From a virus, in IMG/VR virus record IMGVR_UViG_3300035142_000030, positions 1 to 64,000 of that record: 64,000 bases of DNA. The stretch is one strand, 5' to 3'. The notes beneath the pieces are model-generated. The model was given only the letters and a program-made list of their open reading frames with translations. It made no database searches and was not told the origin of the DNA. Of this stretch, positions 31,775 through 62,238 are shown one piece after another; the first letter of the stretch is position 1; every line of letters begins with the position of its first letter. The translations under genes and the position numbers were made by a program.

Positions 31775-31984
31775 ATGAGACAAGAAGTAAAATTTAGAGC
31801 ACCAATTAAAGTAATTGAAAGCGACAACTATTATTTGGTAATAGAGGATGCCGTTGGAGTTACGCATTATTTTCACAAAGAACATGATAATAAGTATGGA
31901 AAATTTAAACAAGGCGAATATGATGGATGGAGTAAACAAATTCGTAGTTTAAATGATAATACGAAAAAATGTTGTGGATTTTAA
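31775..31984 (+). CDS. Small hypothetical protein
   Basis: 69 residues, beta-rich start (KFRAPIKVIESDNYYLVIED), basic middle, Cys pair near the end (KKCCGF). Stop overlaps the ATG of the next gene (TAATG). Unknown. Confidence 0.5.
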   Translation: MRQEVKFRAPIKVIESDNYYLVIEDAVGVTHYFHKEHDNKYGKFKQGEYDGWSKQIRSLNDNTKKCCGF

Positions 31985-32367
31985 TGTCCCGTTTAGAGGT
32001 ATATCCCGAAATAAAAAAAAAACTCGTAGAGTTTTGGGGGTACGGGATGGGTTGTGGGAATACCGAGCAAGCAATGGTTTATAACACAGCGGGATTTATG
32101 GGACGGTTTGGGGCTTTTGCCCCAAAATGGACTATGAAATCACAGTTAGGCATAAAATTTTTTGATATGGAATTTATAGTAGAATTAGAAGAAGGTGTTT
32201 ATTTGGCTACTTGGTCTGGCGACCCTGGGCGAACACTAAAGATTGAAAACGCACAAGTATTTGTCCGCGATAAAGATGCTGATAATGCTCTTGTTAGAGC
32301 CAGATATTATAGACCATTTAAGTATGCCAAAGTGCGAAGGCAAAAGGAAGGGTTGCGAAGCAGCTAA
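31984..32367 (+). CDS. Hypothetical protein
   Basis: 127 residues. The ATG at 31984 overlaps the upstream stop and is preferred to 31969. It has Gly/Met/Phe-rich motifs (GYGMGCGNTEQAMVYNTAG) and a basic C terminus (FKYAKVRRQKEGLRSS) encoded by DNA of higher GC than the rest, as in the cassette-like regions. No family recognised. Confidence 0.5.
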   Translation: MSRLEVYPEIKKKLVEFWGYGMGCGNTEQAMVYNTAGFMGRFGAFAPKWTMKSQLGIKFFDMEFIVELEEGVYLATWSGDPGRTLKIENAQVFVRDKDADNALVRARYYRPFKYAKVRRQKEGLRSS

Positions 32368-32386
32368 GGATGGGGGGGATTTTTAT

Positions 32387-32420
32387 GCCTAACGGTTTGG
32401 CTATGTTTAGTAGCCTAACC
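32387..32420 (+). repeat. Short palindrome with a GCCTAAC core
   Basis: GCCTAAC (near 32387-32393) is followed by GGTTTGGCTA (32394-32403) and its partner TAGCCTAACC (32411-32420), 9 of 10 paired. GCCTAAC matches the integron inverse-core pattern RYYYAAC, but no matching GTTRRRY closes it on this side. Confidence 0.45.
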
Positions 32421-32442
32421 ACTAACTTTGAAATATTTACTA

Positions 32443-32450
32443 AATTTGCA
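32443..32450 (+). promoter_or_regulatory. -7 element TAAATTTG before the structured RNA
   Basis: TAAATTTG with an expected start near 32456, about 30 bases before the first long stem of the RNA at 32484. No clear TTG at the best spacing. Confidence 0.4.
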
Positions 32451-32483
32451 TAGGCTATTAAATATAGCTTTTGTTATAAACTT

Positions 32484-45540: not shown

Positions 45541-45607
45541 AATAATAAATTTTTATTGGTTATTAATTCTAATATATATTTGTACTGCTCTCAGCGCAAC
45601 AATTTAT

Positions 45608-45698
45608 AACTACGTATAAATTCAAAAACCATGTGATAAGCTCATAAACTTTAAGATTACTCCGTAATCCAGTTTCTGAACTTATACGTTTGAACGTT
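45608..45698 (-). repeat. attC-like folded site, 91 bp
   Basis: AAC (45608) to GTT (45698). The core is a long imperfect hairpin at 45636-45685: ATAAGCTCA pairs with TGAACTTAT, AAACT with AGTTT, GATTAC with GTAATC. Outside it TTCAAA/TTTGAA and the AAC/GTT ends also match. The layout (conserved triplets at the ends, unpaired spacers, stem-loop inside) is that of an integron attC site for the leftward gene at 45808. Confidence 0.6.
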
Positions 45699-45807
45699 AG
45701 GCTCAATCGCTTGCACTCCTTCCCTCATTTAAAATTGTATCAATTTGTTATTTTAAATGCTAAAATATCAACAGTTAATCGGATTTAATACGGTTAATTG
45801 CTTATAT

Positions 45808-45924
45808 TTAAACAATTTTAAATTCCATCCTTACAACCCTCAAAATGCCAAATATTATTTTGCCTAACAATTTGGAAAATAAGCCTTCACACAAGTCCTT
45901 TAACGTCTCTTCTATCTGTTGCAT
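45808..45924 (-). CDS. 38-residue cassette peptide
   Basis: MQQIEETLKDLCEGLFSKLL, then GKIIFGILRVVRMEFKIV: an amphipathic helix followed by a basic hydrophobic one. It lies exactly between GTTAGGC (45696-45702, + strand) and GCCTAAC (45943-45949), so it would be the gene of a minimal cassette. It could be a small membrane-active peptide. Translation not proven. Confidence 0.4.
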   Translation of the reverse strand: MQQIEETLKDLCEGLFSKLLGKIIFGILRVVRMEFKIV

Positions 45925-45966
45925 TTTACCTAATATTACAATGCCTAACTAGTAAATAAAGTCCAT

Positions 45967-45987
45967 AAAAATCAAAACTCTGTGTTT
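45967..45987. repeat. 21-bp repeat, copy 1
   Basis: Contains ATCAAAACTCTGTGTTTA and is identical to 50060-50080. Both copies lie just after the stop of a leftward gene. On the minus strand the copies read AAACACAGAGTTTTGATTTT, a weak hairpin with a T-rich run. Confidence 0.75.
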
Positions 45988-46010
45988 ATAAAAAATAAAA
46001 CCACCGCACA

Positions 46011-46307
46011 CTACCAACTGTTATAGAATCTGATTTTATGCACACCTTTAGGTAAATCTTTAATAAATATCTCATATCCAGAAGAAGCATCGTCATCATA
46101 TTCTTTATAATGTTTTCCTGCTTCTAAGTTTATTTCTAATTTTTCATCCAATAAGTATTCTTCTGGATATTCACTGCCAAAATATTCAGCAGTAGCCTTT
46201 GGTAAATCTACATCAGCTTCTAAACAGGCTAATAATACTTTTTTGTGTTTTTGGTAAGTTTCATCCGTATCAGGTATGAATGCTTGTACATGTGTTGACA
46301 TTCCCAT
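46011..46307 (-). CDS. Hypothetical protein
   Basis: 98 residues starting MGMSTHVQAFIPDTDETYQK. Helical centre, acidic, C-terminal strand LPKGVHKIRFYNSW. It has its own promoter. The start MSTHVxAFIPDTDETYxKHKK feels like a family spread among mobile elements, but I cannot name it. Confidence 0.55.
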   Translation of the reverse strand: MGMSTHVQAFIPDTDETYQKHKKVLLACLEADVDLPKATAEYFGSEYPEEYLLDEKLEINLEAGKHYKEYDDDASSGYEIFIKDLPKGVHKIRFYNSW

Positions 46308-46325
46308 CTCTTTTTATTTTTCCGT

Positions 46326-46357
46326 CAAACATATTTTTAATTTTTCATAACGTTCAA
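46326..46357 (-). promoter_or_regulatory. Leftward promoter
   Basis: On the minus strand TTG (46357-46355), 21 bases, TATGTTTG (46333-46326), ahead of the gene starting at 46307. Confidence 0.6.
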
Positions 46358-46358
46358 A

Positions 46359-46595
46359 TTAACAACACAAAAATTCAATCGCATCTTGTTCTTTTTTAAA
46401 GGGGCTTTCACATCCTTCAATTAAAAAAGATGATTTATATGGGTAAATAACACCAATAACAGATAAGCATCCTTTATTTGCTACAATTAATTTATTTCCA
46501 CATCTTTTAAATAAGAATTTAGGAAGTTTAATTTCTTCTTCTTCTTCTACATTATTATTTTTAATAAAATCTAATGACAAAATTTCTTCTTTCAT
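46359..46595 (-). CDS. Hypothetical protein
   Basis: 78 residues, acidic start (MKEEILSLDFIKNNNVEEEE), beta-rich C-terminal part ending CC. Own promoter. Unknown. Confidence 0.5.
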   Translation of the reverse strand: MKEEILSLDFIKNNNVEEEEEIKLPKFLFKRCGNKLIVANKGCLSVIGVIYPYKSSFLIEGCESPFKKEQDAIEFLCC

Positions 46596-46618
46596 AATAG
46601 TAAGTTTTAAAGTCTAAT

Positions 46619-46649
46619 CAAATGTATGGTAAATATTTTTAATATGCAA
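46619..46649 (-). promoter_or_regulatory. Leftward promoter
   Basis: Minus strand: TTG (46649-46647), 20 bases, TACATTTG (46626-46619). Near-ideal Bacteroidota spacing, upstream of the gene starting at 46595. Confidence 0.65.
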
Positions 46650-46650
46650 A

Positions 46651-46752
46651 TTATATCCCTAAAAAGATTAATATAATTACTACAGATTTAATAAAAAGAA
46701 ATCCTCCTATTATCCAAAGTAGTGCTACTGCTAGTAATTTTAACTTTTTCAT
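46651..46752 (-). CDS. 33-residue membrane peptide
   Basis: MKKLKLLAVALLWIIGGFLF then IKSVVIILIFLGI: basic tip and one or two hydrophobic segments. The ATG overlaps the stop of the next gene upstream (46749). Small phage membrane protein of unknown role. Confidence 0.5.
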   Translation of the reverse strand: MKKLKLLAVALLWIIGGFLFIKSVVIILIFLGI

Positions 46753-47051
46753 AGTTTTCTATTTAAAAATGTAAATAATGCTGGTATATTCTCTCTAAAT
46801 ATAGAAGCATTTAACTCAGTACCCTCTATTTCTTCATATAAAGCTGTATAGTCGTCTTTCAATACTTTCATATATATTTGCCCCAAATTAAGACCATTAT
46901 ACTCCTGAGCGAGTATATCTGCCTTTAAAATGAATTGATTAAATTTAACTTGCTTGTCCATAATTCTATGTTTTATGAGTTGTTTTCTTTTTAGTTCTTT
47001 TAGATGTTTATGGTTTAACATCTCTAAGTGATCACATATAAAATCATTCAT
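46749..47051 (-). CDS. Hypothetical helical protein
   Basis: 100 residues from MNDFICDHLEMLNHKHLKEL. The longer frame runs back into the HNH gene, so I use this start, which overlaps that gene's stop by 8 bases. Charged helices throughout. Unknown. Confidence 0.5.
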   Translation of the reverse strand: MNDFICDHLEMLNHKHLKELKRKQLIKHRIMDKQVKFNQFILKADILAQEYNGLNLGQIYMKVLKDDYTALYEEIEGTELNASIFRENIPALFTFLNRKL

Positions 47052-47466
47052 TGTTTTTATTAATATCCGATAATTTTTCAAAATAAAAAACTCCATCAAA
47101 AGGTTTATTCTCAGTAATTCCAAAATATTCAGCAACTTTTAATAAATACTTTTTACGCTTAATAGACTTTTCAGTTTTTGGATTTTTAGGTAACTTTCTA
47201 AGTCTTTTATGTAAGCCGCCTAAATACCAAGTTCTGAAAGTTTCTAAATCTAGTGATCCTTTATAATGGTTTATTATTTTTTGAACGGGAAACATATTTT
47301 CAATATTATGCGCTCTTTCATTCATAGCCGTATTAGTCCACCAATTTCTAATTAGTGGTTCAACATGGTCTACTTGCCAATCATCTTCCAGATCAGTTCC
47401 TGAATAGGCACATTTACCATTGAATTTTGGTCTTATAATTTCTCTATTCTTTTTTGAAATGTACAT
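47044..47466 (-). CDS. HNH endonuclease
   Basis: 140 residues. KCAYSGTDLEDDWQVDHVEP gives the first Cys and the D-H pair, NIENMFPVQKIINHYKGSLD the N...N-x-x-K-x end of the beta-beta-alpha metal motif. A second zinc ligand is not obvious. It may be a homing endonuclease or a helper of packaging. Basic C-terminal half binds DNA. Confidence 0.75.
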   Translation of the reverse strand: MYISKKNREIIRPKFNGKCAYSGTDLEDDWQVDHVEPLIRNWWTNTAMNERAHNIENMFPVQKIINHYKGSLDLETFRTWYLGGLHKRLRKLPKNPKTEKSIKRKKYLLKVAEYFGITENKPFDGVFYFEKLSDINKNNE

Positions 47467-47524
47467 ATATTACAAAGTTTTCGAATGCTATTAATAAGTT
47501 CTATTTGGTAAAGTCTAAGTAAAA

Positions 47525-47770
47525 TCATACAATCATTTTTTCAATAATAAAAAAAGTTTTTCCAAGTATTAAATAAGGAATTTTACCTGATTCAATTCTG
47601 TTTCTAACAGTTTTATCATTTACTTTATATTTTTTCACATATTCTGATATTTCAATTAATTCATATTGATTAAACATAAATACAATTAATTGTAAATATT
47701 CAGAATAATCGAGATGCTTATTTACAATTTTTTGTATATCAAATAGACAATACTTTCTTATATTGTTCAT
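47525..47770 (-). CDS. Helix-turn-helix protein, excisionase/MerR-like
   Basis: 81 residues. The C-terminal half EISEYVKKYKVNDKTVRNRI then ESGKIPYLILGKTFFI matches HTH_17-type winged helices (A-x-x-L-x-V-S-x-x-T-V-x-x-x-I-x-x-G-x-I/L-P). Probably a regulator. It lies just left of the palindrome chain, so it could bind its border, but that is speculation. Confidence 0.65.
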   Translation of the reverse strand: MNNIRKYCLFDIQKIVNKHLDYSEYLQLIVFMFNQYELIEISEYVKKYKVNDKTVRNRIESGKIPYLILGKTFFIIEKMIV

Positions 47771-47772
47771 AA

Positions 47773-47814
47773 TATCAATTAGTTAAAATTTATGTTCCAC
47801 CTATCGATTAGTTA
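47773..47814. repeat. Direct repeat at the left edge of the palindrome chain
   Basis: TATCAATTAGTTA (47773-47785) and TATCGATTAGTTA (47802-47814) differ at one base and are 29 bases apart. The second copy contains the first GTT of the chain (47811). Confidence 0.65.
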
Positions 47815-48125
47815 GCTGTAATAAAATTTACTATCGTTCTACCCAAAAAGGATATTCCCCTGTATAAACTACTTTATTGCCAGCATTTGGCACGTATTCC
47901 CCTCGCTCGGTTTTCATCCAGTTCATTAGTGGTTCAAATGATGTTTTAGTTTCGTAACCGAAGCATCCATATTTAAACTTTATCTCCTTTTTGAAACCTT
48001 CATTTTCAGTTAAATCTCCAAATGGTGTAACATAAGGGAATACTACCATATCACCCTCGCACACTTCAATTCCGTTTTTATCAAATATATTACTTTTCAT
48101 GCCGTAAATTTTACATACCGCTAAC
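47811..48125 (-). repeat. Gene-flanking inverted repeat (gene 47831)
   Basis: GTTAGCTGTAATAAAATTT plus AC (47811-47831) against GTAAATTTTACATACCGCTA plus AC (48104-48125): GTTAGC, GTA and TAAAATTTAC pair, with one mismatch and a small bulge. It encloses one leftward gene. Confidence 0.65.
47831..48100 (-). CDS. YopX-like small protein (cassette gene)
   Basis: 89 residues from MKSNIFDKNGIEVCEGDMVV. The longer frame to 48244 adds 48 residues that are translated from the attC-like palindrome, so I reject it. D-K-N-G-I-E-V-x-x-G-D-x-V is the YopX-type start; the C-terminal part is GCFGYETKTSFEPLMNW. Typical small cassette protein of unknown role. Confidence 0.55.
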   Translation of the reverse strand: MKSNIFDKNGIEVCEGDMVVFPYVTPFGDLTENEGFKKEIKFKYGCFGYETKTSFEPLMNWMKTERGEYVPNAGNKVVYTGEYPFWVER

Positions 48126-48214
48126 AAGCGGTCATAGTTAATAAAGCCAATTAAGTTTAGTTCGTTGTAGGTTGCGGTAGTGGGTGGCTTTACTAACCAT
48201 ACCGCATCTACGTT
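48123..48214 (-). repeat. attC-like palindrome, 92 bp
   Basis: AAC at 48123 and GTT at 48212. Arms GCGGTCATAGTTAATAAAGC plus CA (48128-48149) and TGGCTTTACTAACCATACCG plus C (48185-48205): about 20 pairs with one extrahelical C and two G-T-type mismatches. A second hairpin GTAG(GT)TGCGGTA/TACCGCA(T)CTAC competes with it. Confidence 0.65.
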
Positions 48215-48673
48215 ACAGACAATTGCCCGCACGGCATTCCGCACGGGCTATCGCTCACAACCCACTCTAAATTTTGTTTAGAATTTGTTCCAACGCCCAA
48301 TACTCTGGATTTGCAAGAGCAGTAACTACATTATTAATATCACAAATACTAATAATCAGCCAAATACATAAAATGATTGCAAGTATAACAATTGCAATCC
48401 AATGTCCAACTTCAGTATCATTATCATAGCATTTTTGATAATTTTTAGCAAACCATTTTATGTATCGCACATATGGTATAATTAAGAGAAAAGAAATAAT
48501 GATTAAGGTAATTCCCACAAATGCATCAATAGGTGCTTGCTTAATCATAACTCCCCACAAGTATTCGGTCGTTGTACCAAGCTTACTTGCTAAGCTTTCT
48601 AATAATGTTGTTAATTCATTCATTTTAATATAATTTAGTTAAACAAAATTTTCTAATGTCAATTGTCTGTAAC
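48212..48673 (-). repeat. Gene-flanking inverted repeat (gene 48267)
   Basis: GTTACAGACAATTG (48212-48225) and CAATTGTCTGTAAC (48660-48673) are perfect 14-base complements. Within the left flank is GCCCG-CA-CGG-CATT-CCG-CA-CGGGC, another hairpin. Confidence 0.75.
48267..48623 (-). CDS. Membrane protein (cassette gene)
   Basis: 118 residues with at least two strong membrane helices (FVGITLIIISFLLIIPYVRY and WIAIVILAIILCIWLIISIC). Enclosed in a perfect 14-bp inverted repeat. Cassettes often carry small membrane proteins. Unknown role. Confidence 0.55.
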   Translation of the reverse strand: MNELTTLLESLASKLGTTTEYLWGVMIKQAPIDAFVGITLIIISFLLIIPYVRYIKWFAKNYQKCYDNDTEVGHWIAIVILAIILCIWLIISICDINNVVTALANPEYWALEQILNKI

Positions 48674-48810
48674 AGTCGCCTAAATACAGCATTCGTCGCA
48701 GCTTCGTATCAAATTGGTTCATATCGTATTGAAACCCTAAGGCAACTATCTGTAACTACTAAATACAAGCCAGCGAGACAAGCTCGCCATCGTGTATTTA
48801 GGCGACTGTT
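48671..48810 (-). repeat. Gene-free palindrome with perfect 18-bp arms
   Basis: AACAGTCGCCTAAATACA (48671-48688) and TGTATTTAGGCGACTGTT (48793-48810). The 104-base loop contains the hairpin GCGAG/CTCGC. Outer triplets AAC and GTT are shared with neighbours. Size fits the longer attC sites. Confidence 0.8.
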
Positions 48811-48885
48811 AGATTCCATACTCCCACGGCATTCCCACAAACCCCGCTACGCCCCACCGCACAAAAACCATCGTATGAAATCTAA
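48809..48885 (-). repeat. Gene-free palindrome, 77 bp, C-rich loop
   Basis: TTAGATTCCATAC (48809-48821) and GTATGAAATCTAA (48873-48885), 12 of 13 paired. Its C-rich loop resembles that of 49292-49370. Confidence 0.7.
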
Positions 48886-49293
48886 TGGTACGGCAAGTAG
48901 TACCACTCGCTCAATACCATTTACGTATCTGAATCTTATTACTTCCTCCAACGTACAGAATCTAACTGTCAAGTCAGAGGAAAGTAATTTTAGAACTCAT
49001 TCTAAACAATACGTTTACAGCTTAATTCCCAATGTACTTGTTCGGCAACTTTTAATCTACGAACTGAACTTTTTCCAGTTTCAGGTAATTTGCCTTCATT
49101 TAACCATAATAATATCATTTGTATAAAGTTGCCTGCTGGCAATTCTACTTTTTGACCTTTACCATCTATATAATAAACTGTATCAGTCAATTCGCTGTAA
49201 ACTAATTCTTTTTTTTGCTCAATCATTTCTATATAATTTTATCTGTTAATAAACAATGTTCTAAAATTCCCATCCACTACTTGCCGTACCATT
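48884..49293 (-). repeat. Perfect 18-bp inverted repeat around gene 49002
   Basis: AATGGTACGGCAAGTAGT (48884-48901) and ACTACTTGCCGTACCATT (49276-49293) enclose one leftward gene and extra hairpins (TTACTTCCTC with GAGGAAAGTAA, one-base bulge). Confidence 0.8.
49002..49226 (-). CDS. Hypothetical cassette protein
   Basis: 74 residues (MIEQKKELVYSELTDTVYYI, then DGKGQKVELPAGNFIQMILL). Soluble, mixed. The last residues are read from the hairpin-rich flank. Unknown. The frame 48656-49126 on the other strand is a palindrome artefact. Confidence 0.5.
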   Translation of the reverse strand: MIEQKKELVYSELTDTVYYIDGKGQKVELPAGNFIQMILLWLNEGKLPETGKSSVRRLKVAEQVHWELSCKRIV

Positions 49294-49370
49294 GTAACTC
49301 AATTGACAGCTCTCCATCCGCACAAGGCTTCCCATCCGCCCCGCAAAATACCAAAGCAATTGAGTTACAA
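49292..49370 (-). repeat. Gene-free palindrome, 79 bp, C-rich loop
   Basis: TTGTAACTCAATTG (49292-49305) and CAATTGAGTTACAA (49357-49370), perfect. Loop has CATCCGCACAAGGCTTCCC and CCGCCCCGCAAAATACC, similar to the loop of 48809-48885. Confidence 0.75.
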
Positions 49371-49806
49371 CGCTCGGAGTTCATTCGATGTAAAAATTAT
49401 GAAACACCGAGTTTATGAGCTTCTTCATCAAATGCAATTTTTATATTTGTAATTTCAGTTTGAATTTCTAATAAAAGTTCATGAAATTCTTGTTGCTTAT
49501 CTTCAATTTGTTTGTCAGCAAATTGCATTTTTGAAATTATGTTCTCCTTATAAGCATAAGCAGAGTTCAAATCATTTTTTAATTTTGTGTGCTTAGCTTT
49601 AAGAACATCAAGTCTATTTAAGTAATTACCATACTGTTCTTGAAAATTCATAATTTTTACCTTTCTATATTTAAGTTTATAATGTTCGATACGTCACAGC
49701 GTACAACTACGTGTAATGCAGAATTGCTACAATCGAATGATGCCGATTTACGGCTTTACTTTGCCTTGCGGCAAATCGCCGCAACTCAGCATACACTCCG
49801 AGCGTT
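49369..49806 (-). repeat. Inverted repeat around gene 49397 with an inner folded site
   Basis: AACGCTCGGAGT (49369-49380) and ACTCCGAGCGTT (49795-49806), perfect. On the gene's promoter side an inner palindrome GTGTATGCTGAGTTGC / GCAATTCTGCATTACAC (about 49713-49795) holds the hairpin TTTGCC-TTGC-GGCAAA. Confidence 0.75.
49397..49651 (-). CDS. Coiled-coil protein (cassette gene)
   Basis: 84 residues, almost all helix (LNRLDVLKAKHTKLKNDLNS, DKQQEFHELLLEIQTEITNI). No membrane segment. Likely forms dimers or trimers. Unknown function; enclosed in a 12-bp perfect inverted repeat. Confidence 0.55.
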   Translation of the reverse strand: MNFQEQYGNYLNRLDVLKAKHTKLKNDLNSAYAYKENIISKMQFADKQIEDKQQEFHELLLEIQTEITNIKIAFDEEAHKLGVS

Positions 49807-49961
49807 ATGCGTAAAAATACCCGCATCCTAGTTCGCTAACGCTCACCCATCCGCATCCTCCCACTTATCAATATACAATTTTAGCTTATAAATAAGTATT
49901 CCTATTACAATTCCGATTCCTATTAATATTAAATTCATATCCAAATATTTTTACGCATAAC
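49804..49961 (-). repeat. Perfect 16-bp inverted repeat around a 31-codon gene
   Basis: GTTATGCGTAAAAATA (49804-49819) and TATTTTTACGCATAAC (49946-49961). Confidence 0.8.
49843..49938 (-). CDS. 31-residue membrane peptide (cassette gene)
   Basis: MNLILIGIGIVIGILIYKLK then LYIDKWEDADG: one membrane helix and an acidic tail. It is the only frame between perfect 16-bp inverted repeats, and its composition is clearly protein-like. Confidence 0.5.
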   Translation of the reverse strand: MNLILIGIGIVIGILIYKLKLYIDKWEDADG

Positions 49962-50059
49962 ACCAGAGAAAATATACCGTCCCGCAGGAGACGTTCTCCA
50001 GTATCTGCAAGTTTATATTCCTAATATTTCTACTCATAACTAAAAAATCATAGCACATT

Positions 50060-50080
50060 AAAATCAAAACTCTGTGTTTA
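50060..50080. repeat. 21-bp repeat, copy 2
   Basis: Identical to 45967-45987. Lies between the stop of gene 50096 and its flanking palindrome arm. Confidence 0.75.
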
Positions 50081-50095
50081 ATAAAATAAAGCCAA

Positions 50096-50446
50096 TTAAT
50101 ATATATTCTTTCTACCCCTGTCAGCGTGCAATGGTACTAAATGATCACACGAACCGCAAAAATGTTTAGCTTTAGTCTCCCAGTAAATTCCTTCAGAATG
50201 TGTATCAAAAAGCGAATTACAATTGCTACACATCTCAATATGGTCTGGTAGTAAAGGAAAATGTTCTTGTAAATAATAAATTATTGCAAACGCTTTTTTA
50301 GCTGTCATCTTTGGCTGATGCCCACGCTTAAAAGAAAGTTGTTCAGGTAATTCACCTTGTAAAAAATTGTAAAATTCTTCTATCCATTCAAGGTCTGTAT
50401 CAATCCTCTGATCATTATTTTTAAGCAATTTTATTTCATTGTACAT
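50096..50446 (-). CDS. Zinc-finger cassette protein
   Basis: 116 residues. C-x2-C (CSNC) near 80 and C-x2-C (CGSC) near 98 make one Zn site; the N-terminal half is helical. The end HADRGRKNIY is basic. It could bind nucleic acid. No family named. Confidence 0.55.
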   Translation of the reverse strand: MYNEIKLLKNNDQRIDTDLEWIEEFYNFLQGELPEQLSFKRGHQPKMTAKKAFAIIYYLQEHFPLLPDHIEMCSNCNSLFDTHSEGIYWETKAKHFCGSCDHLVPLHADRGRKNIY

Positions 50447-50551
50447 AAGGCTTTATTTTTAATTAGTACTAAATTTATAATCATATTTTACCTGTAATTT
50501 CATCAAGTTTCAATCAATGTTTTAATTTTACCGTCCCATATTTTCTCTGGT

Positions 50552-50933
50552 GTTAGAAAACATGCCGTTTCGAACGGACGCAAAAATCATTTTGCTTTCT
50601 TATATTTAGAGCCTTTACTATTACAAAAATCACATATTGCATTGTTAGGTTTGTTAGATATACATGAACTGCAAAATTTCCATTTTTGCTCATGTTTTCT
50701 AACGGTTTCACGTTCGTTTGATATTAAAATTTGATTGATAAAGTCATTCAATTGGACTATAGCGTATTCAACAGACAACATATCTAATGTGTCTTCATCT
50801 CCAATTGTATCAAGTCTATCCATTAATATCTTACGTATTCCATCAGTATAATCTTTTTTATGTTTCATAATATCAAATTTTAATTATTAATACTAATTTA
50901 GTTTATCAATTCTCAACGTCACGATTTTCTAAC
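50552..50933 (-). repeat. Inverted repeat around gene 50587
   Basis: GTTAGAAAA (50552-50560) and TTTTCTAAC (50925-50933) pair perfectly; pairing continues imperfectly inward (TG, CGTT). GTTAGAA is close to GTTRRRY. Confidence 0.6.
50587..50868 (-). CDS. Zinc-ribbon cassette protein
   Basis: 93 residues: helical, then FCSSCISNKPNNAICDFCNS (C-x2-C...C-x2-C) and a basic tail KGSKYKKAK. Probable zinc ribbon. Second Zn protein in adjacent cassettes. Confidence 0.55.
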   Translation of the reverse strand: MKHKKDYTDGIRKILMDRLDTIGDEDTLDMLSVEYAIVQLNDFINQILISNERETVRKHEQKWKFCSSCISNKPNNAICDFCNSKGSKYKKAK

Positions 50934-51032
50934 CAACGTTTATGCTTAATTAAAGCTATCAAACGATGCTCCGTTAAAGCTTTTCTTGCGTTTCACGCAA
51001 CCGCTTTAACAAAGCATACACGTGAAACCGTT
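50931..51032 (-). repeat. attC-like palindrome, 102 bp
   Basis: AAC at 50931, GTT at 51030. Arms 50936-50956 (ACGTTTATGCTTAATTAAAG plus C) and 51003-51023 (GCTTTAACAAAGCATACACG plus T) pair at 18 of 21 positions. Inner hairpins GTTAAAGC/GCTTTAAC and TTGCGT-TTC-ACGCAA. Unpaired spacers separate arms and end triplets, as in attC sites. Confidence 0.75.
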
Positions 51033-51375
51033 AGAGTGCATTTAATCCAAGTGAATAAGCATTTCTCCCCACGCACTTCTACCTTTCACTTTCGGTAGTG
51101 ATGTGTAGTGTAGTGTCATTCCTGTAAATTCACACTCTTTGTTATTTAAACTTTTTTTAACCATCCAGTCTTTTGCTTCTTTCCTTATAATATCATCTTC
51201 ATTGTTTCGATGCCAGCCCACGCTAATTATCAAATTACCAATTCTAATTTTACTAAGTGAAAAACGCACTCTAACAATAGATAAAATCCATTGCTTAAAA
51301 TGTGCTAATTCGTTACGTAAGTATTTCATATCAATGTTTTTATAAGTTTGAAAATTCAGTTCATTAAATCGCAAC
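51030..51375 (-). repeat. Imperfect inverted repeat around gene 51042
   Basis: GTT...GC-ATTTAAT (51030-51046) with ATTAAATCGCAAC (51363-51375). The match is broken by a 5-base bulge; it is the weakest of the chain. Confidence 0.45.
51042..51374 (-). CDS. Hypothetical cassette protein
   Basis: 110 residues, basic (NELAHFKQWILSIVRVRFSL), beta-rich C terminus with TGMTLHYTSLPKVKGRSAWG. The last codons lie in the palindrome arm. Unknown. Confidence 0.5.
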   Translation of the reverse strand: MRFNELNFQTYKNIDMKYLRNELAHFKQWILSIVRVRFSLSKIRIGNLIISVGWHRNNEDDIIRKEAKDWMVKKSLNNKECEFTGMTLHYTSLPKVKGRSAWGEMLIHLD

Positions 51376-51472
51376 GTATCTTATCAGAGCCGTTGCACAC
51401 AATGCCCCATCTAGGGGACGTGCGACTCGCTATCGCTCCTGTCGCACTCATTGTGTGCAACAGTTTGGCGTT
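51373..51472 (-). repeat. attC-like palindrome, 100 bp
   Basis: AAC at 51373, GTT at 51470. GTTGCACACAATG and CATTGTGTGCAAC (about 51392-51404 and 51449-51461) are perfect. The loop holds CCCC-ATCTA-GGGG and GTGCGAC/GTCGCAC. Confidence 0.75.
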
Positions 51473-51485
51473 AGCTTGTAAATAA

Positions 51486-51662
51486 TTATTCGCTCAGTAC
51501 TTCTAAACTATAAGATGATACATAATCAATCTTTTTACCAACTATTACAACTGCATACGGTATATCATCAGCTCCCCGCACGTATCCATCAATGTATCCA
51601 ACATCTCCAACCTTAAACATCATATGTTGGTATTCTTTAATAATTTTAACTTTTGTCTTCAT
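51486..51662 (-). CDS. Small hypothetical cassette protein
   Basis: 58 residues (MKTKVKIIKEYQHMMFKVGD, then VGYIDGYVRGADDIPYAVVI). The beta-rich content suggests an SH3-like small domain. Too short for the usual gene cut-offs, but clearly protein-like and placed next to an attC-like site. Confidence 0.55.
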   Translation of the reverse strand: MKTKVKIIKEYQHMMFKVGDVGYIDGYVRGADDIPYAVVIVGKKIDYVSSYSLEVLSE

Positions 51663-51697
51663 AATTATTTATTTAGTTATTTGTTAATTTCTGCTTA

Positions 51698-51868
51698 CTA
51701 GATGGTGCACAATGTGCAACTAGCGTTTATGCGTAATTGTAATAGGCAATTTCCAATCTCCCAGTAACTTGCGCCTAAACGTTCCAATATCATTTCAGCT
51801 TTCTCAAAGCTCCAACTTTTATAACATTGATAAAAGTTCCCTTTATAGGTATACATTATATGAATCAT
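51698..51868 (-). CDS. Small hypothetical cassette protein
   Basis: 56 residues from MIHIMYTYKGNFYQCYKSWS. The longer start at 51949 is read from a palindrome and is rejected. FEKAEMILERLGASYWEIGN is helical. The last residues come from hairpin DNA (TGCACAATGTGCA), so the true end may be shorter. Confidence 0.5.
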   Translation of the reverse strand: MIHIMYTYKGNFYQCYKSWSFEKAEMILERLGASYWEIGNCLLQLRINASCTLCTI

Positions 51869-51937
51869 AATTTTATATTTAAAGTTTGTACTAAATTTTA
51901 ACAATACCCTAAAAATCCTTCCCATATCTTTCGGAGT

Positions 51938-51992
51938 GTTATGGCTCAATTTCGCTACGCTCTACGATGACTTCATTTAATTGAGCCATAAC
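51938..51992 (-). repeat. Gene-free palindrome, 55 bp
   Basis: GTTATGGCTCAATT (51938-51951) and AATTGAGCCATAAC (51979-51992), perfect, 27-base loop. Confidence 0.8.
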
Positions 51993-52168
51993 GAGACAAC
52001 GTATGAAGTACAGGCTCAGTGTACTATATTAATTCTATTTTAATTTATCCGCTCAACTAGAGCATAACTACATATAAGCGTAATACTATGAGCCTTACTT
52101 CAAAGCTCTCAGAATATTTCACCGATAAAAATCGGCTCATATTCCTACGCTTATACGTTGTCTCGTTA
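51989..52168 (-). repeat. Gene-free palindrome, 180 bp, nested arms
   Basis: TAACGAGACAACGTAT (51989-52004) and ATACGTTGTCTCGTTA (52153-52168), perfect 16 bp. Directly inside, GAAGTACAGGCTCA pairs with TGAGCCTTACTTC with one extrahelical C. ATAAGCGTA/TACGCTTAT and CCGAT/ATCGG offer further hairpins. No gene. The plus-strand frame here is an artefact. Confidence 0.8.
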
Positions 52169-52211
52169 GTAGCAAGCGGGTTCAGTTCTCGTATCAAACA
52201 TTGTGCGTATT

Positions 52212-52253: not shown

Positions 52254-52868
52254 TTAGGATAAAGCTGCAAGTAGTTCAGTTACCCACTTATTTGAATCTT
52301 CACATCTTTTCAATTCTGCATTGTGTTCTTTTGTGTGGTATTCAATATCCCAGTTGGCATCTGCAATCATATCCTTTCTAATATCAGCAGCATTTATGTT
52401 TTCTAATTGAGAATCTATCTTGCTTAACTCATCATCGTGGTACTTTGTGTCTCCATCGTGGTCAATAGTTGTCACTATCTGTTCAATCATAAATTTAGCA
52501 ATTCCTTCGTGGTCTTTTGTTGGTGGTTTGAAATCCCTTGCTTTAATTAAAAACTCATCAAGTTTAACCCTTGCTTTTTTTATTTCCTTAATTCTTTCGG
52601 TGTGATAGGTTCTACTTTCTTTTATCTGTTTTTTGCGAGAGGCAATTATTTCAGAATCGGTAAGTTTCTCAGCTTGATTTAATTTTTCATTAGCTGTTTT
52701 TAACGCTTTAATATGGTAATCGCTCGGCGTTCTTGGCACGTACTCTTTATTCATACTTTCATCTCTCATATGTATAGTTGCTCCAAAAGCTCTCATACAT
52801 TGTTTTGCAAAATCTTGGAATGTTTCGGTTGTGCCGTCAATAATTCCTGCTGTGTAACCTGTTGGCAT
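52254..52868 (-). CDS. Conserved-type hypothetical protein
   Basis: 204 residues starting MPTGYTAGIIDGTTETFQDF then AKQCMRAFGATIHMRDESMN. The rest is long charged helices. I recall this type of start from phage and genomic-island proteins, but know of no function. Has its own terminator. Confidence 0.6.
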   Translation of the reverse strand: MPTGYTAGIIDGTTETFQDFAKQCMRAFGATIHMRDESMNKEYVPRTPSDYHIKALKTANEKLNQAEKLTDSEIIASRKKQIKESRTYHTERIKEIKKARVKLDEFLIKARDFKPPTKDHEGIAKFMIEQIVTTIDHDGDTKYHDDELSKIDSQLENINAADIRKDMIADANWDIEYHTKEHNAELKRCEDSNKWVTELLAALS

Positions 52869-61829: not shown

Positions 61830-62155
61830 TAACGCCTTAAAGCGTAAACTCCGTTACATGGAGAACGTAGTTCGGGAATGTAACGAGTTTAAAATGCTGT
61901 AATGGAGTTTACGCATAGTTACAAACCGTGCCAATGGCACAAAGATTATTAGAATGTTGAACTTAAAATAAATTTTATGAAACGTTTATGTAAAATGAAA
62001 CCATATTATGTAATACCAAGAGTATTTTATATATATGCTGGCTATACTGGATTAGATAATGGATTAGCAATAGGTTGGCTTGGCAGAATGTTTATTATAA
62101 TTATTCCTGTTAATGAAAGGGAATAAAATTTATGCATTTTAGCTTTAAGGCGTTA
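61830..62155 (+). repeat. Perfect 14-bp inverted repeat around gene 61977
   Basis: TAACGCCTTAAAGC (61830-61843) and GCTTTAAGGCGTTA (62142-62155). Inside the left part, GCGTAAACTCC (61842-61852) pairs with GGAGTTTACGC (61904-61914), and AAACTCCGTTACAT pairs with ATGTAACGAGTTT with one extrahelical base. Confidence 0.8.
61977..62126 (+). CDS. 49-residue membrane protein (cassette-like)
   Basis: MKRLCKMKPYYVIPRVFYIY then AGYTGLDNGLAIGWLGRMFI: one or two short hydrophobic segments. It lies between the arms of a perfect 14-bp inverted repeat. Confidence 0.5.
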   Translation: MKRLCKMKPYYVIPRVFYIYAGYTGLDNGLAIGWLGRMFIIIIPVNERE

Positions 62156-62238
62156 CAAAACCATAGGCAAACAGTGGAAACGGTGAGCGAAGCGAATAAG
62201 TTTCGTTTGCCGTGCCTCGATGGCATGGTTTTGTAACG
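62151..62238 (+). repeat. attC-like palindrome, 88 bp
   Basis: CGTTACAAAACCAT (62151-62164) and ATGGTTTTGTAACG (62225-62238), perfect. Inner GGCAAAC/GTTTGCC and GAAAC/GTTTC. CGTTA is shared with the repeat on its left. Confidence 0.8.

Follow-up and report, generated by a model that had tools for sequence, protein, structure and literature searches.

Cassettes of a probable integron-type array in a viral genome carry the reverse complement of their own end junctions

The viral record IMGVR_UViG_3300035142_000030 is 76,721 bp long, and the 64-kb window analysed here (its positions 1 to 64,000) is most of it. The window carries a cassette array in which small genes on the minus strand lie among borders of the GTT and AAC type and folded sites resembling the attC sites of integrons (Table 1), the cassette polarity being taken as the plus strand. 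A cassette would extend from one G|TT border to the next, hold small genes and usually include a classical attC whose right arm ends at the border. Seven cassettes contain, in addition, an element here called K2, which is complementary to the junction that their own two ends would form in a circle. The terminase of the virus shares about 27% identity with its counterparts in Flavobacterium, Cellulophaga, Tenacibaculum and Maribacter phages, and because of this resemblance the virus is most likely a flavobacteriophage. Megablast gave no DNA match in phages, a more distant search yielded only a 34-bp match in an HNH gene, and plasmids showed no DNA match.

The count was restricted to perfect inverted repeats with arms of 12 bp or more and partners within 700 bp, and 200 dinucleotide shuffles served as control. 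The stretch 47811-52168 contained 16 such repeats (shuffle mean 0.35, maximum 3), and in eight cases neighbouring repeats overlapped by 1-6 bases, an arrangement that did not appear in any of the 200 shuffles. No other non-overlapping 4.4-kb stretch of the record was comparable, except for a mini-chain at 61.8-62.2 kb. The end-to-end tiling of inverted repeats over 4.36 kb described in an earlier note on this DNA is thus real, and the shuffles, named there as a possible refutation, produced no tiled neighbours; chance palindromes were ruled out by them and by the rest of the record. Every AAC, GTT, AA and TT that the note had placed at the repeat ends reads in the sequence as it was given, and the cassette ends, when compared, differ from unit to unit as it had said. 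One pairing was wrong: the partner of GTT at 50552 is not AAC at 50931, which is an arm of a classical attC, but the perfect match at 50691-50703, inside the open reading frame (ORF) 50587-50868. No known RNA family scored above its gathering score.

For each of seven cassettes, the junction of a hypothetical circle was written out (right end | left end, with the cut at N|TT) and compared with an internal site. In all of them K2 is a 23-30-nucleotide (nt) reverse complement of this would-be junction, with 10-16 nt complementary to the right end and 12-15 nt to the left end; it is exact in six of them and has a single mismatch in the seventh (C2). The matches stop sharply, with unrelated flanks, and are centred on the cut N|TT in all seven. 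Because K2 pairs with either end of the cassette that contains it, the region is tiled by long perfect palindromes, which are K2 pairings and not the attC sites themselves, a distinction between K2 and true attC arms that the earlier reading had not made. K2 lies between the gene and attC in C1, between the left end and the gene in C2 and C3, between two ORFs in C4, within the coding sequence in C5 and in a unit without genes in the last cassette.

In shuffled genomes, triads of this kind reach at most 19 nt. When ends of different cassettes were joined, nothing but the array borders and sequences partly overlapping them was recovered, and the array was found to hold inverted copies of the junctions only, with no direct ones. 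None of 49 attC sites from other viral contigs and phages has a second arm (the longest exact match to the right end was 7 nt, usually 1-3 nt), and five of the eight classical sites in the record have one of 9-15 nt. The K2 stem has no bulged base; it also lacks an unpaired spacer, and K2 by itself therefore does not qualify as a standard attC arm. Integron-type cassette arrays without an integrase (CALINs) have already been published for phages, and, on the sequence comparisons made here, K2 is best called the new part; no description of it was found in the literature searched, most subscription journals not being covered.

The outer bases that the earlier note took to be shared are indeed common to neighbouring repeats, and they can now be specified as ends of half-sites whose exchange takes place precisely at N|TT. 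In one half-site the final base is A and not G (..GTACCA|TT); this holds for both of its copies, namely the K2 of C2 (48884-48886) and the border at 49291. As the A stands in both copies of the C2 right half-site, the exchange point is fixed between that base and TT.

For the classical sites, attC-like stretches were gathered from viral contigs by one narrow pattern, which gave 31, and 20 of them were aligned; pairing was found in 98% of their stem cells and in 94% of those of shuffles, most pairs being fixed by the pattern. A covariance model, R1, was built from the aligned sites and used as well because an exact 7-bp stem search is too strict for imperfect attC sites. Up to E = 10, R1 had no match in 354 kb of 26 other viral loci, and it matched the Polaribacter phages P12002L and P12002S at about 1e-6. 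In the record, its best match, with 24 bits, was 45607-45700; the next two were 32389-32476 (18 bits, minus strand) and 52065-52169 (15 bits). The first and third are the two array ends, 6.4 kb apart, and the second coincides with an isolated 13-bp inverted repeat (32145-32393). Sites of the kind proposed in the earlier note were in this way matched by a home-built model at both ends of the array, although at modest scores. Between those ends, where structural sites are spaced by less than 3 kb, sites of the same plan (AAC, short spacer, stem, loop, stem, longer spacer, GTT) begin at 48123, 48756, 49706 and 50931, and a minus-strand one occupies 61831-61920. The R''/R' core AAC ... GTT is present in all classical sites and in most tile borders, two of which have A in place of G. 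Unpaired central spacers of 1-4 and 6-9 nt occur in the classical sites, and mismatches in single ones are, by reading, candidate extrahelical bases, of which K2 stems have none. An attC pattern search of genome contigs gave no match, and a second pattern, made for the window's own subtype, matched no viral contig.

Table 1. Positions of the cassette array, its sites, K2 elements and genes in the window (aa, amino acids).
Feature	Position	Strand	Remarks
Whole cassette array	45607-52168	+	bounded by R1 matches 45607-45700 and 52065-52169; tiled repeats between
attC-like site, left array end	45607-45700	+	model R1, 24 bits, E 0.04
attC-like site of cassette A	48123-48214	+	TAAC-AA-GCGGT ... ACCGC-ATCTAC-GTTA; by reading; no K2, no second arm
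Cassette C1	48212-48808	+	left end GTTACAGACAATTG, right end TGTATTTAGGCGACT|G
Cassette gene, 118 aa	48267-48623	-	resembles phage membrane protein family phrog_1486, E 1.5e-12
K2 of C1	48660-48688	+	29 nt, exact reverse complement of joined cassette ends
Classical attC of C1	48756-48811	+	AAC-TA-CTAAATACA ... TGTATTTAG-GCGACT-GTTA; stem search
K2 of C2 (cassette 48808-49291)	48873-48901	+	one mismatch in 29
Cassette ORF, 74 aa	49002-49226	-	between K2 and right end of C2
K2 of C3 (cassette 49291-49804)	49357-49380	+	24 nt exact
Cassette ORF, 84 aa	49397-49651	-	
Classical attC of C3	49706-49806	+	AAC-TAC-GTGTAATGC ... GCATACAC-TCCGAGC-GTT; by reading; second-arm test
Cassette ORF, 33 aa	49843-49944	-	one membrane helix predicted by reading
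K2 of C4 (cassette 49804-50552)	49946-49975	+	30 nt exact; classical left arm not recognised
Cassette ORF, 116 aa	50096-50446	-	Cys-rich C-terminus
Cassette ORF, 93 aa	50587-50868	-	Cys-rich C-terminus; holds K2 of C5
K2 of C5 (cassette 50552-51030)	50691-50713	+	23 nt exact, within ORF 50587-50868
Classical attC of C5	50931-51032	+	AAC-CA-ACGTTTATGC ... GCATACACGT-GAAACC-GTTA; by reading; second-arm test
Cassette ORF, 110 aa	51042-51374	-	
Degenerate chain part	51372-51940	+	no clear right arm
K2 of last cassette (gene-less, 51938-52165)	51979-52004	+	26 nt exact; folding
Classical attC of last cassette, right array end	52066-52168	+	model R1 15.2 bits, E 1.4; stem 10 bp
Mini-chain, one cassette (62237 down to 61833)	61831-62238	-	gene 61977-62126 on plus strand
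Classical attC of mini-chain cassette	61831-61920	-	11-bp stem, stem search
K2 of mini-chain cassette	62142-62164	-	23 nt exact

DNA folding was predicted for both the array and the circle. K2 is the partner of the terminal 12 nt of the right end at a probability of 0.83-1.0. The classical stem, in which the inner right arm would pair with the classical left arm, reaches a probability of 0.00-0.04. With K2 barred from pairing, four of the five cassettes gained this stem on one strand or both (0.33-0.89). The stems predicted here are thus formed with K2, and the classical attC stem is displaced. In a Vibrio attC, deletion of the bulged bases together with closure of the spacer lowered bottom-strand recombination 85,000-fold (PMC2727003). 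Because the K2 stem has neither spacer nor bulge and is predicted to displace the classical stem, we infer, as the simplest functional reading, that K2 may be a lock keeping the folded site out of its recombinogenic form, the K2 stem holding the cassette ends in a shape that a recombinase could use only poorly.

CALINs of virulent phages, P12002L included, have been published (Qi et al. 2023, PMC9892861), and for P12002L that study pointed out attC sites of divergent direction and showed recombination of one site with IntI1 in a conjugation assay (PMC9892861). P12002L and its sister phage P12002S are 97.8-99.9% identical in long shared blocks, but their cassette regions are different. Of six block ends, five coincide with a GTT, the two sequences being identical up to GTT and then unrelated, or the reverse. 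P12002S has three extra cassette genes (gp57-gp59), and a 14-bp inverted repeat (GTTGTGCATAGTAC/GTACTATGCACAAC) stands at the end of one of them; the breakpoint of this gain is ambiguous, about 8-14 bases before GTT. Since blocks are exchanged at GTT, the border logic of the earlier note holds in this nearest published system, as judged from aligned genomes, the sister phages being the only place where such an exchange was seen. The integron-type array proposed in that note is well supported by the attC-like sites at both ends and inside, by the GTT/AAC borders and by this exchange, but integron logic does not by itself explain the palindrome chain: ordinary arrays, those of other flavobacteriophages included, are not tiled by long perfect palindromes. 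The left end of the cassette with P12002S gp58 (L087:39957-40128) matches a site in its own gene, which is possibly a partial parallel to the K2 within a gene.

Neither an integron integrase (TIGR02249) nor a tyrosine recombinase (PF00589) was matched in the 76.7-kb record, which is possibly a fragment, and a serine recombinase (PF00239) and a Y1 transposase were not detected in it either; with no integrase gene found in those 76.7 kb, the array is not classed as a complete integron. Because no recombinase was found in the record, we infer that one is presumably supplied by the host: acting on the folded strand, an enzyme of the IntI kind would cut it at G|TT and move cassettes as wholes. Taken together, the locus is probably a CALIN of a flavobacteriophage, its integron-type cassettes being served by a recombinase in trans and fitted with K2 as a putative lock. 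We would suggest, much more tentatively, that a cassette-borne complement of its own circle junction decides mobility, as a lock or guide for single-strand recombination conserved as a pairing rule and not as a sequence.

Several observations weigh against the locked CALIN. No close relative of the phage was found, and no movement was seen in the phage itself; the R1 scores within the record are modest (E 0.04-1.4), and the identification of the classical sites within the array relied in part on visual inspection. In C2 and C4 a clear classical arm is lacking, the stretch at 51.4-51.9 kb is degenerate, and in C3 the classical stem is absent even with K2 barred (0.03). What the folding predicts is a structure and not a function. 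Finally, 76 of 78 genes neighbouring 41 related sites are antisense to the attC polarity used here, so that the canonical cut would be expected at the other arm, as gene orientation suggests. A cut at that arm is countered by the P12002L/S block ends, which, together with the logic of K2, place it at GTT on the 3' side of the gene, although the tension remains.

The perfection of K2 could also have arisen without selection, if template switching in folded strands had perfected imperfect older arms and left K2 as a functionless mutational by-product. Ordinary attC arms pair over 9-11 nt beyond the core (PMC2727003), and partners of the left end alone are also found within genes, in P12002S gp58 (15/17 nt) and at 32145 (13 nt). 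Nevertheless, such switching needs adjacent cassette ends, in a circle or in tandem, as template, the match is centred on the cut every time, and seven K2 events in one phage stand against none in about 49 other sites, so we regard this origin as unlikely. Doubtful, too, is a role of K2 as a working second arm, in which a symmetric core would allow either strand to be cut and units to move at both AAC and GTT. The K2 match is symmetric about the cut, with about 13 nt on each side, genes are found in both kinds of interval, GTT..AAC and AAC..GTT, and loss of the bulged bases abolishes strand preference in Vibrio attC; however, the same change drastically lowers recombination there (PMC2727003), all genes of the array share one orientation, and the P12002L/S block ends fall at GTT (five of six).

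Two further explanations are very improbable. Some short hairpins within units are terminator-like and the sequence is a metagenome-type virus record, so that the palindromes might act in RNA (terminators, closed transcripts) or be an assembly artefact, but loops reach 600 nt, neighbouring repeats have halves in common with the boundary exactly at N|TT, and the reading frames remain open, even one that holds a K2. Shufflons and invertons carry genes between inverted repeats, and the genes here are likewise flanked by inverted repeats of 12-18 bp, yet segments inverting to switch gene orientation are hardly credible given that the arms differ among units instead of being shared, that the genes all have one orientation and that no PF00589 or PF00239 recombinase was matched in the record.

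Compared with known systems, the array resembles the P12002L/S CALIN in belonging to a flavobacteriophage, with no integrase reported, in its minus-strand small genes, attC-like hairpins and GTT borders, and in cassette-end inverted repeats, which reach 14-18 bp in those phages, where whole blocks are exchanged at GTT. In contrast, P12002L/S have no K2 (their longest second arm is at chance level) and no chain of tiled perfect palindromes. With the cassettes of IntI integrons it shares the GTT..gene..AAC borders, the folded AAC..GTT site, the unpaired spacers of the classical sites and arms that vary in sequence and are kept by pairing; unlike in those integrons, no integrase was found in the record, the genes are antisense to the block-end polarity, and there are extra, perfect junction-complementary arms. 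In the folded attP of phage CTX, used by XerCD, two distant inverted sites pair to give a double-stranded core with the cut inside. That core is dif-like, whereas in the present array the sequence is particular to each cassette, and K2 complements both ends of the unit.

Only a few phages are known to have cassette arrays that lack an integrase. If the interpretation of K2 as a lock is right, a copy of the excision junction inside the cassette, once within a gene, would be a cis element controlling attC folding, and loss of K2 is predicted to change the recombination of the site. Complete integrons are rarely reported in Bacteroidetes (PMC9024848), yet one type of attC-like site (TAACACCGTATATAAT ... 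ATATACAATACGTTAG) occurs commonly in flavobacteriophage-like IMG/VR contigs (L089-L119, L086, L087), the 31 stretches all coming from one narrow pattern. Three of these contigs (L098, L099 and L106) have identical 54-bp attC cores between different genes, and their similarity ends near AAC and 13-20 bases beyond GTT. The isolated minus-strand attC-like site of the record (32145-32476) adjoins a 13-bp inverted repeat, the far arm of which is inside the open frame 31969-32367, in the structural-side gene region.

Regarding the cassette genes, no useful homologues in phages or viral contigs were obtained for 50099-50446, 50590-50868 and 48270-48623, the sole match being L003, an unrelated contig, and a protein alignment search of genome contigs gave no match. 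In the degenerate part of the chain, an imperfect 23-nt pair of cassette ends (51392-51414 / 51698-51720) flanks the gene 51486-51662, and a further 13-bp partner is present at 51449-51461. Terminator-like hairpins directly follow three cassette genes (48225-48248, 49978-49993 and 50565-50577), so some cassettes may be complete transcription units. In addition, a direct repeat of 31 bp, 90% identical (AAAATCAAAACTCTGTGTTTA), is found at 45964-45994 and 50056-50086, downstream of two different cassette genes. Finally, the gene to the right of the array (52254-52868, phrog_8905) adjoins attC-like hairpins also in two viral contigs, L002:8001-8621 and L006:7001-7612.

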